This document shows positions 31,876-33,928 of a DNA stretch of 64,000 nucleotides, piece by piece. Every line of letters starts with the position of its first letter. Position 1 is the stretch's first letter. This DNA is from Slackia sp. (GTDB lineage: Bacteria > Actinomycetota > Coriobacteriia > Coriobacteriales > Eggerthellaceae), in contig JAUNBA010000008.1 in the NCBI GenBank assembly GCA_030527325.1, forward strand, positions 3,272-67,271. Direction: 5' to 3'. The notes beneath the pieces were generated by a model, which did no database searches, was not told where the DNA came from, and saw only the letters and a list, made by a program, of their open reading frames with translations. A program made the translations under genes and the position numbers.

Positions 31876-32769
31876 CTATCGCAGGCAATCGGCGCCCGAA
31901 ACCGCCACGGCGAGCGCGCCCGTGCATGCGGGCGCGGCCTGGCCGACGGCGCGCACGAACTGGGCGCCCGCCGCACGCACGGCGATGGCCGCATGCGCGA
32001 GGTCGTCGGGCAGCGCGTACGGCTTGCCCGGGATGGCGGCGCCCAGCATGGCGCGCTTTTTCTCTGCGGCGGTGGCGGCGCGCACGACGAACTGCACCAG
32101 CACGGGAACATCGACGCACGCCGCCAGGCGGCGCACCGCATCGCACACCGCATCGCAAGGCGCGGCGCACGATATGCCCGCCACGTCGGCCTGGGACAGC
32201 GCTTCGGCGAGTTCCTCGATAGAAGCGCCGGCGGCACGTCCCTCTTCGTCGAGATCGACGACGGCGAACACCGGGCGGGCGGTCGCGCGGCGGGCGCCCT
32301 CGACGGCGCAGCGCACATCGGCCTCGCTGCGCAGGCCGCTGAGCAGCACGGCGTCGAAGTCGTCCGAGCCGAACGCCGAAACGGCATCGCGGTATTGCGC
32401 GATATGCTGCTCGCGCGAAAGCTCGTCGGAAGCGTCGAGCGGAAGCGCGCAGGTTCCCACTTCGCATATAACATGCTGCGGCTTGCACGAGCGCACGCTT
32501 TCAAGGGCGGCGGCGGCAAGATCGCGCGCCCTATCCTCCAAGCGATGATGGGCCAGGCGCGCCTCGCAGAGCCCCTCGGTGTTCGTGACGATGCACTGCG
32601 CGCCCGCCATGACCTCGAGACGCAACGCGTCTTCCACCGCTTCCGGTTCGATGAGGTTCACGAATTCGGCATCGTGCGCCGTATCGATCCCCTGGCGCTC
32701 GAGCGTATAGGCGACAGGCGCCGAAAGCACCAGCATGTCTTTATGGAAACGGATTTCGATATCGGCCAC
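31876..32769 (-). CDS. homocysteine S-methyltransferase-like protein lacking the terminal zinc motif
   Basis: A 297-aa TIM-barrel protein related to MmuM and the MetH N-terminal domain: LSAPVAYTLERQGID in place of the DGAMGTELQRRG start, EVMAGAQCIVTNTEG, DFDAVLLSGLRSEADVRCAVE, GISCAAPCDAV (the GVNC zinc block), and a C-terminal block. The C-terminal GGCC that supplies two zinc cysteines is missing; the tail reads GAQFVRAVGQAAPAC. It may therefore be inactive on homocysteine or use another ligand set. The start GTG 32769 has AGAGG 5 nt upstream. Confidence 0.6.
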   Translation of the reverse strand: MADIEIRFHKDMLVLSAPVAYTLERQGIDTAHDAEFVNLIEPEAVEDALRLEVMAGAQCIVTNTEGLCEARLAHHRLEDRARDLAAAALESVRSCKPQHVICEVGTCALPLDASDELSREQHIAQYRDAVSAFGSDDFDAVLLSGLRSEADVRCAVEGARRATARPVFAVVDLDEEGRAAGASIEELAEALSQADVAGISCAAPCDAVCDAVRRLAACVDVPVLVQFVVRAATAAEKKRAMLGAAIPGKPYALPDDLAHAAIAVRAAGAQFVRAVGQAAPACTGALAVAVSGADCLR

Positions 32770-32963
32770 GACGACCTCTTTTCTTGCTTGTGAAACGATT
32801 CTTGACGCGAAGGCGCGCCGTAAGCGGCGGGCGGCGTCGACGGCTATTGTATCGCACCGGCGGCACGGGGCCTGAAAACGCCCCGTTTCCCCGCGTATAC
32901 CTTCCTGTAACCCGGTCCATCGGACGCACATATCCGCGTCATAGCTTCTTGAAACCGCACCCG

Positions 32964-33097
32964 TATACTACGAGCTGCAAGCACGAAGGCTTCCCCTCCT
33001 TCCCTTGCCTGCTCTATGGCAGCAAACGATGCGACGAGCATCGCTTATCCCCTCCTTGTATGAGGCCCGGCTTCCCTTCCGGGCCTCGATTTTTTTA
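32964..33097 (+). ncRNA. tandem C-rich-loop small RNA, unit 1
   Basis: A free-standing RNA unit with its own signals: -10 TATACT (32964-32969), predicted start near 32976, and an intrinsic terminator GAGGCCCGG/CCGGGCCTC with 7 T ending near 33097. Predicted folds: stem 1 GCAAG/CTTGC enclosing GAAGG/CCTTC with loop CTTCCCCT; a small CTGC/GCAG stem; stem 3 CGATGC/GCATCG; an unpaired TTATCCCCTCCTTG; terminator loop CTTCCCTT. C-rich loops of this kind can pair with ribosome binding sites. It has no open frame of note. Unit 2 has the same architecture with compensatory stem changes. Confidence 0.72.
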
Positions 33098-33162
33098 CCT
33101 GCAGCGCGGGCGTGCACACGAGGTTTCCACAGCCGCGCCATATTTTCTCGAAACCCGTTTTC

Positions 33163-33295
33163 TATAATGAATCGCGTAAGCACGAAGGTTCCCCTCCTTC
33201 GCTTACCTGCGATACGCAGCACAATCAACGGTGCAGCGAGCACCGTTCATCCCCCTCCTTGGCCGAGGCCCGGTTCCCCTCCGGGTCTCGGCATT
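33163..33295 (+). ncRNA. tandem C-rich-loop small RNA, unit 2
   Basis: A paralogue of unit 1 about 200 nt downstream: consensus -10 TATAAT (33163-33168), predicted start near 33175, and stem GTAAGC/GCTTAC enclosing CGAAGG/CCTTCG with loop TTCCCCT. A CTGCG/CGCAG stem, then ACGGTGC/GCACCGT with loop AGCGA follow. An unpaired CATCCCCCTCCTTG and a terminator CCGAGGCCCGG/CCGGGTCTCGG with loop TTCCCCT close it. Stem 3 differs from unit 1 at several paired positions yet pairing is kept, which is evidence for selected RNA structure. Both units share a GAAACC block about 10 nt upstream of the -10. I cannot match it to a named RNA family from memory. Confidence 0.75.
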
Positions 33296-33344
33296 TTCAT
33301 ATCCGGCCGTGTACGCGGACGAATCGCCCGTATCGCCGGATTAT

Positions 33345-33532: not shown

Positions 33533-33928
33533 ATGAAGCGTTCCATCCTGTTCGCCTGCGCCTGCTGTTCATGCGCGCTCGGATTCATCGGCGTCGTCAT
33601 TCCGGTGCTTCCCACCACGCCGCTGCTTTTGCTGGCCACGTTCCTGTTCGCGAAAAGCTCGCCGCGCTGCCATCGCTGGATATGCGAAACCGGCGTCTAC
33701 AAAACCTACGTGCAGGCGTTCAAAGAGCGCGGCGGCATTCCGATGCGCACGAAGCTGCGCATCCTCGCCGTCTCGTTCACGCTGATGGGCGCCAGCGCCG
33801 TCATGGTGCGCCAGCCCGTGGTATGGGCCGTGCTCGCCTGCGTGGCGGTGTTTTTGCTGTGGCTCATGGGATTCCACATTCCCACGATCGCCGCGGGCAC
33901 CTCGACGCTTTCGGGCGCCGAAGAATAG
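33533..33928 (+). CDS. DUF454 (YbaN-like) inner membrane protein
   Basis: A 131-aa protein of the YbaN/DUF454 family with three or four membrane helices. The family block GFIGVVIPVLPTTPLLLLATFLFAKSSPR is near residues 18-46, then a cytoplasmic YKTYVQAFKERGGIPMRTK and two more helices. Function in the family is unknown. The start ATG at 33533 has AAAGGAGAG 4 nt upstream; the longer open frame upstream is GC-rich non-coding sequence. It stands alone between the small RNAs and the carboxylase genes. Confidence 0.85.
   Translation: MKRSILFACACCSCALGFIGVVIPVLPTTPLLLLATFLFAKSSPRCHRWICETGVYKTYVQAFKERGGIPMRTKLRILAVSFTLMGASAVMVRQPVVWAVLACVAVFLLWLMGFHIPTIAAGTSTLSGAEE

Follow-up and report, generated by a model that had tools for sequence, protein, structure and literature searches.

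Two units arranged in tandem

What kind of element is represented by the two similar segments that follow one another in the 64,000-nt stretch of Slackia sp. DNA analysed here (the window)? In the initial annotation they were read as a tandem pair of small RNAs with a common -10 box, start, C-rich loop, unpaired C-rich segment and terminator. Direct reading and alignment bear out this layout: both units combine a TATACT (unit 1) or TATAAT (unit 2) box and a AAGCACGAAGG start with a TTCCCCTCCTT loop, an ATCCCC(C)TCCTTG linker and a G+C-rich terminator hairpin. Where the annotation noted stems that differ between the units, the differences are there as well and are compensatory. The components are as follows.

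32975..33096, + strand: unit 1, structured RNA, predicted sRNA of ~120 nt (direct reading, folding)
32977..33008, + strand: unit 1 hairpin 1, GCAAG..CTTGC around GAAGG-CTTCCCCT-CCTTC, C-rich loop (family model, covariation)
33009..33022, + strand: unit 1 hairpin 2, CTGC..GCAG (family model, covariation)
33027..33043, + strand: unit 1 hairpin 3, CGATGC..GCATCG, strongly covarying (free fold, covariation)
33047..33058, + strand: unit 1 linker ATCCCCTCCTTG, resembling the 16S tail (direct reading, 16S comparison, unpaired probabilities)
33062..33096, + strand: unit 1 terminator hairpin with C-rich loop and T run (folding, terminator scan)
33174..33299, + strand: unit 2, structured RNA, predicted sRNA (direct reading, folding)
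33176..33206, + strand: unit 2 hairpin 1, C-rich loop (free fold)
33207..33219, + strand: unit 2 hairpin 2 (free fold)
33227..33247, + strand: unit 2 hairpin 3, ACGGTGC..GCACCGT (alignment, free fold)
33249..33261, + strand: unit 2 linker ATCCCCCTCCTTG (direct reading, free fold)
33262..33292, + strand: unit 2 terminator hairpin, loop TTCCCCT (free fold, terminator scan)

Compared with dinucleotide shuffles, folding z-scores are -3.97 for unit 1 and -6.45 for unit 2, and none of 200 shuffles folds equally well. Free folding of unit 2 gives exactly three hairpins and the terminator. In unit 1, the 5' arm of hairpin 1 pairs with the end of the linker and not with its own 3' arm; the inner part of this hairpin is present in the free fold, while the outer part is absent from it. 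The proposed plan of three stem-loops and an unpaired CCCCTCC segment is found as described in unit 2, while the free fold of unit 1 pairs part of the linker, and the count of hairpins has to be corrected to three plus the terminator hairpin. Both terminators were detected by a consensus scan, and a scan for promoters found no standard sigma-70 -35/-10 pair at either unit.

Distribution of related sequences

A DNA search (E up to 1) hit 50 of 61 genomes, often with short matches of chance level, and included clear relatives of the units in several genomes of the same genus. Twenty sequences with the full plan or most of it were picked by eye from this search. Because MAFFT alignments misplaced the variable hairpins, a four-sequence alignment was taken as the start, and a covariance model (R1) was built from four Slackia sequences, unit 1 and three others. 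Of 120 genomes of relatives, 57 have an R1 match (E up to 0.1), a count that includes the window's own and the training genomes; over 66 sources chosen because of such matches, R1 yields 87 units. These 87 units served to build a second model, R2. Unit 1, which belongs to the training sets of both models, scores 141.8 bits with R1 and 118.7 bits with R2; unit 2 reaches 82.3 bits with R1, whose training set excludes it.

At E up to 0.01, R2 matches 139 of 395 genomes of the order; many of these supplied the model, and others (e.g. G306 to G394) did not. The window's family, taken as Eggerthellaceae since NCBI places Slackia there, accounts for 98 matching genomes. Multiple copies are common in it, with two to four matches in 51 of the 98, a count in which a few extra copies may be due to chance (one of the four in genome G335 is likely a 28-bit match). 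Single matches were obtained in 28 genomes of six other families (f2, f5 to f9). Another 13 genomes, of f4 and f10, have one weak match each (best E 2.9e-4) and, though included in the 139, are not counted as members. The given counts also contain four further weak matches (E 1.7e-4 to 1.2e-3), one in the window's family and three in f2/f5.

Outside the order, the best match is 32.1 bits in a sample of the class (197 genomes, those of the order included) and 27.5 bits in a sample of the phylum (296 genomes); within the class sample, the best match of each matching genome of the window's family reaches 47.9 bits or more. The large searches score a subset of candidates in each genome, so absences are no proof. 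Plasmid records gave no match. A pattern scan of named genomes returned 13 records, among which one from Streptomyces (12.3 bits with R1) and one from Acidimicrobiia (no R1 match at E 1) look like chance.

The existence of homologues excludes a chance origin of the two window units. Homologues with compensatory changes in related genomes, on which the initial annotation had made its reading depend, were found in number. The units are members of a real, order-specific family of structured RNAs, and the two in the window are paralogous members of this covarying family.

Structure and covariation

The plan of the family comprises hairpin 1 with its C-rich loop, hairpins 2 and 3, the linker and the terminator hairpin. 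Hairpin 2 (CTGC..GCAG) is the least variable stem; the stem of hairpin 3 is variable and G+C-rich. Among 86 distinct rows of the alignment, which was fitted to the model's own structure, 96.8% of 2337 cells pair, and double-sided changes occur in 27 of 29 pairs. The covariation score is 0.580, compared with 0.157 in shuffled alignments; none of 500 shuffles reaches the observed value, and slid structures give at most 0.079. Free folding of the 87 single sequences recovers 64% of the model pairs of the inner and 88% of the outer hairpin 1, 90% of hairpin 2, 94% of hairpin 3 and 98.5% of the terminator. Across the 87 units, then, the stems vary while the C-rich segments are kept.

Genomic context

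Two genes adjoin the units of the window, both lying outside the RNA.

31876..32769, - strand: divergent neighbour with a homocysteine S-methyltransferase domain, PF02574 (Pfam; start codon placed by eye)
33533..33928, + strand: downstream neighbour, DUF454, PF04304 (Pfam)

Pfam identified a divergent PF02574 neighbour at three more loci, of which two belong to other families of the order, and a similar neighbour recurs by eye in many more loci among the matches listed. This recurrence supports common descent of the units. Genes on the downstream side change between loci: an NTP_transferase (Pfam) adjoins the unit of one locus (L056), and recN-like and DtxR-like genes were recognized by eye downstream of others, several on the opposite strand. 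At loci L014, L023, L041 and L087, which include some units outside the window's family, translations inspected by eye show neighbours that resemble a DtxR-type regulator and truA.

These observations bear on whether the units could be cis-acting leaders or attenuators of a downstream gene. In the window the next downstream gene does lie on the same strand, which would suit such a role, but each unit has its own terminator, the copies stand in tandem, and the downstream-side neighbours differ and are in several cases oppositely oriented. We consider a cis-acting role hardly credible; the terminator hairpin in each unit and the differing downstream genes argue for action in trans.

A promoter element with four half-sites

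According to the initial annotation, a GAAACC block stands upstream of the -10 box. Both units do contain it, but only as part of a longer promoter element, a feature new with respect to that annotation.

32918..32969, + strand: unit 1 promoter, four half-sites at an 11-nt period (three CA, the fourth GAA), followed by TATACT at 32964-32969 (pattern match, conservation in 77 distinct promoters)
33117..33168, + strand: unit 2 promoter, four half-sites at an 11-nt period (three CA, the fourth GAA), followed by TATAAT at 33163-33168 (pattern match)

Both window promoters match the element, that of unit 1 without mismatch, where shuffles lead to an expectation of 0; allowing up to two mismatches, no other match was found in the window. 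A TATAMT box could be placed in 79 of the 87 units, giving 77 distinct promoters, and no clear box is present at the expected place in the other eight. Counted from the first base of the box, C and A occupy positions -46/-45 in 69 and 67 of the 77 promoters, -35/-34 in 71 and 71, -24/-23 in 71 and 70, and -13/-12 in 51 and 68. The four half-sites thus keep an exact 11-nt period, accompanied by T at -15 (72/77) and A at -11 (68/77).

The element in its strict form precedes 54 of the 87 units. All 14 units known to come from outside the window's family lack it, as do 19 of the remaining 73, so that it is a feature of the window's family, in which most copies carry it. In 307 loci, all 63 distinct element sites are followed by C-rich motifs downstream, a proportion that partly reflects the choice of loci, most of which were selected for the RNA. 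In 1.2 Mb sampled from three genomes as 60 evenly spaced pieces of 20 kb, the element is absent. A related pattern has 18 hits in ten whole genomes, 16 of them promoters of these units, and two hits when read backwards.

Direct repeats spaced by 11 nt are typical of regulators of the OmpR/PhoB type. We infer that a response regulator of this type binds the half-sites.

C-rich segments and their likeness to the 16S tail

In both window units, a UCCC motif is found in all three of hairpin loop, linker and terminator loop. Across the family, CCC is present in loop 1 of 80, loop 2 of 38, the linker of 86 and the terminator loop of 80 of the 87 units. Computed folds leave these sites unpaired with mean probabilities of 0.98 (loop 1), 0.97 (loop 2), 0.94 (linker) and 0.77 (terminator loop). 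On average a unit holds 1.94 copies of CCCTCC, compared with 0.32 in shuffles.

The window's own genome gave no 16S match, and the 16S tail was for this reason taken from two other Slackia genomes, in which the 3' end of the 16S genes holds GGATCACCTCCTTTCT. The linker AUCCCCUCCUU equals this tail at 10 of 11 bases; likewise, the linker form ATCCCCTCCTT, exact in 50 of the 87 units, is identical to 16S ATCACCTCCTT at 10 of 11 positions. Judged by complementarity, the linker would pair with Shine-Dalgarno regions reading AAGGAGGGGAT. The anti-Shine-Dalgarno role suggested initially for the C-rich loops is supported, and the resemblance between the linker and the Slackia 16S tail strengthens it.

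Exposed C-rich sites could also act as a decoy for a protein that binds C-rich RNA (Rho, a cold-shock protein or another), in the way that CsrB-type RNAs sequester CsrA. Up to four unpaired sites per molecule and several gene copies would suit such a function. However, conservation is more specific than C-richness, given that CCCTCCTT is found in 79 of the 87 units and that the linker copies the 16S tail. Moreover, in the account of LhrC in PMC4132741, repeated motifs serve pairing with mRNA. We regard a protein decoy as improbable and favour pairing with mRNA.

Candidate targets

Potential targets were searched as AAGGAGGGGA-N1-11-ATG in 14 genomes carrying the RNA; the perfect 16S complement AAGGAGGTGA served as matched control. 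Fully complementary sites are few, with 1 to 9 rows per genome including the antisense strands of units. The 53 test rows were reduced to 50 loci by leaving out two antisense-strand sites of units and one second start of a kept site. Another 16 loci, including seven that are antisense strands of units, lack an ORF of 100 aa and were removed. This left 34 ORFs, some of which may be non-genes (L161, for example, is without a Pfam match). Of the 39 control rows, all of which were examined, 21 have an ORF of at least 100 aa. Pfam was applied to 33 of the 34 test and 7 of the 21 control ORFs, and the remainder was judged by eye.

Tat signals of the RRxF type are present in 8 of the 34 test ORFs, compared with none of the 21 control ORFs (p 0.015) and 12 of 854 sampled genes called by a simple purpose-made predictor (p 1.8e-7). 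With the looser pattern RRx[FLMIV] there is no clear difference (9/34 and 7/21, respectively), all seven control hits being a single protein that looks like ribosomal protein L10. Tat signals were singled out as a category once the hits had been seen, and strict RRxF was adopted after the loose pattern. Because of this post hoc choice and the null result with the loose pattern, the apparent enrichment of Tat-exported flavoproteins behind fully complementary sites is a lead and not a result. Seven of the eight RRxF ORFs are FAD_binding_2 flavoproteins, one of them (L171) in the window's own genome. Other test ORFs include NrfD, two DmsC, a class III cytochrome, a molybdopterin oxidoreductase and a nitrate-reductase-delta-like protein; DmsC also appears twice in the control set, once as judged by eye. 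At 33 of the 34 test sites, calculated pairing is stronger for the linker than for the 16S tail, which is expected from the way the sites were chosen.

Anti-Shine-Dalgarno sRNAs with general or other targets (transport, envelope, stress) would leave the reductase link as a matter of gene commonness. The 34 test ORFs do hold transporters, RecO (two, one by eye), LuxR-type regulators and a glycosidase, and the reductase enrichment, itself post hoc, vanishes with the looser Tat pattern. The strict counts against sampled genes and matched controls speak against this explanation, which we find rather unlikely, and reductases remain our preferred candidates.

Some sites recur. Behind AAGGAGGGGAGCATCAATG, two Slackia genomes carry related short ORFs of ~75 aa (L172 and L228, both among the 16 loci dropped for lack of a 100-aa ORF), which makes this a conserved candidate target. 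In two genera (L187 and L222), fully complementary sites stand before the same TPP-dependent oxidoreductase subunit (PF02775). One contig of genome G034 carries a DmsC gene and a LuxR-type regulator ~6 kb apart, both with fully complementary sites (L226 and L227).

Comparison with known RNAs

No family of Rfam 15 reaches its gathering score in the window, nor does any over a unit in 35 related loci, where only an FMN riboswitch and four tRNAs were found elsewhere. An Rfam hit to a known family, which would have told against the initial annotation, was absent at threshold. The riboswitch lies at L010:2149-2317, ~0.5 kb downstream of a unit in a Slackia metagenome assembly. The best of nine sub-threshold Rfam matches on the region is Scr3202 (25.9 bits, with a threshold of 52), from the unit 2 terminator onward.

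Mycobacterial B11 is a member of the 6C RNA (RF01066). As described in PMC10470900, two C-rich loops of B11 repress an mRNA bearing a G tract, and 6C RNA resembles the present family in its C-rich loops and its presence in Actinomycetota. None of the 61 genomes exceeds the 47-bit cut-off for RF01066 and four give weak matches; the 14 control genomes of this search also show none over the cut-off. RF01066 has no match at E 1 in the window's genome and is absent among the nine weak matches on the units. Collinsella-1 (RF01700) is likewise a candidate structured RNA, of Actinobacteria and of human gut sequence (PMC2864571); as an Rfam family, it has no threshold match in the window or the 35 related loci.

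LhrC1-5 of Listeria monocytogenes are present in several copies with UCCC in a hairpin loop, a single-stranded stretch and the terminator loop; their expression requires the two-component system LisRK, and they impede translation of a target (as reported in PMC4132741). The likeness consists in multiple copies and a C-rich motif in hairpin loop, linker and terminator loop. Several copies under one two-component system would be a further likeness: here 51 of the 98 matching family genomes have more than one match and 54 of 87 units have the direct-repeat element, under a regulator that is putative. Compared by description, the differences are the other phylum, and here three hairpins before the terminator, a longer 16S-like motif and a promoter with four half-sites.

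Streptococcal csRNAs of the CiaRH regulon also occur in several copies and have an unpaired stretch complementary to the Shine-Dalgarno sequence (PMC3091779). Their promoters, in the same description, carry direct repeats TTTAAG-N5-TTTAAG that recur every 11 nt, ten bases from the -10 box, close to the spacing observed here. In contrast to the units, csRNAs as described there have two stem-loops and two repeats of another sequence, most are also complementary to AUG, and they belong to another phylum. Homology with csRNAs was rejected on reading, as the CiaR repeat NTTAAG-N5-TTTAAG is not matched by the consensus here, which has CA(C/T) repeats and TTCAA. By analogy of plan, the family most likely consists of anti-Shine-Dalgarno sRNAs with a mode of action like that of LhrC and the csRNAs.

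Proposed function

We think it probable that the units are paralogous trans-acting sRNAs of ~120 nt that repress translation through their C-rich loops and 16S-tail-like linker, under OmpR/PhoB-type control and with reductases as targets; transcription, regulator and targets are predictions from sequence. Each unit would be transcribed as such an sRNA. A response regulator binding the half-sites just upstream of the -10 box may switch the copies on together. The C-rich loops and the linker would then pair with Shine-Dalgarno sequences, likely repressing translation, with each sRNA competing with 16S rRNA for mRNAs whose Shine-Dalgarno sequence is AAGGAGGGGA or near it. Prominent targets are predicted to be exported or membrane-bound anaerobic reductases (Tat-signal flavoproteins, DmsC, NrfD), on whose repertoire of respiratory enzymes the sRNAs might thus act as a brake.

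A bolder extension, which we hold to be doubtful, is that multi-copy sRNAs mimicking the 16S tail, with up to four anti-Shine-Dalgarno motifs and, in Eggerthellaceae, one dedicated four-half-site promoter, would be a master post-transcriptional brake on exported electron-acceptor reductases and would set which drugs, hormones and dietary compounds get reduced.

Among the matches listed in a survey of the open-access literature, which leaves subscription papers outside, no paper describes an sRNA regulator of Eggerthellaceae, and the Collinsella-1 candidate motif is the nearest. These bacteria are known for reducing catechols, steroids and dietary compounds (as noted in PMC11574389). If the proposed function is true, a conserved riboregulator would be present in them; the promoter element would offer a handle on its regulator, and a short list of candidate mRNAs would be at hand. 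By analogy, it would also mean that the plan of LhrC and the csRNAs was arrived at independently in another phylum.
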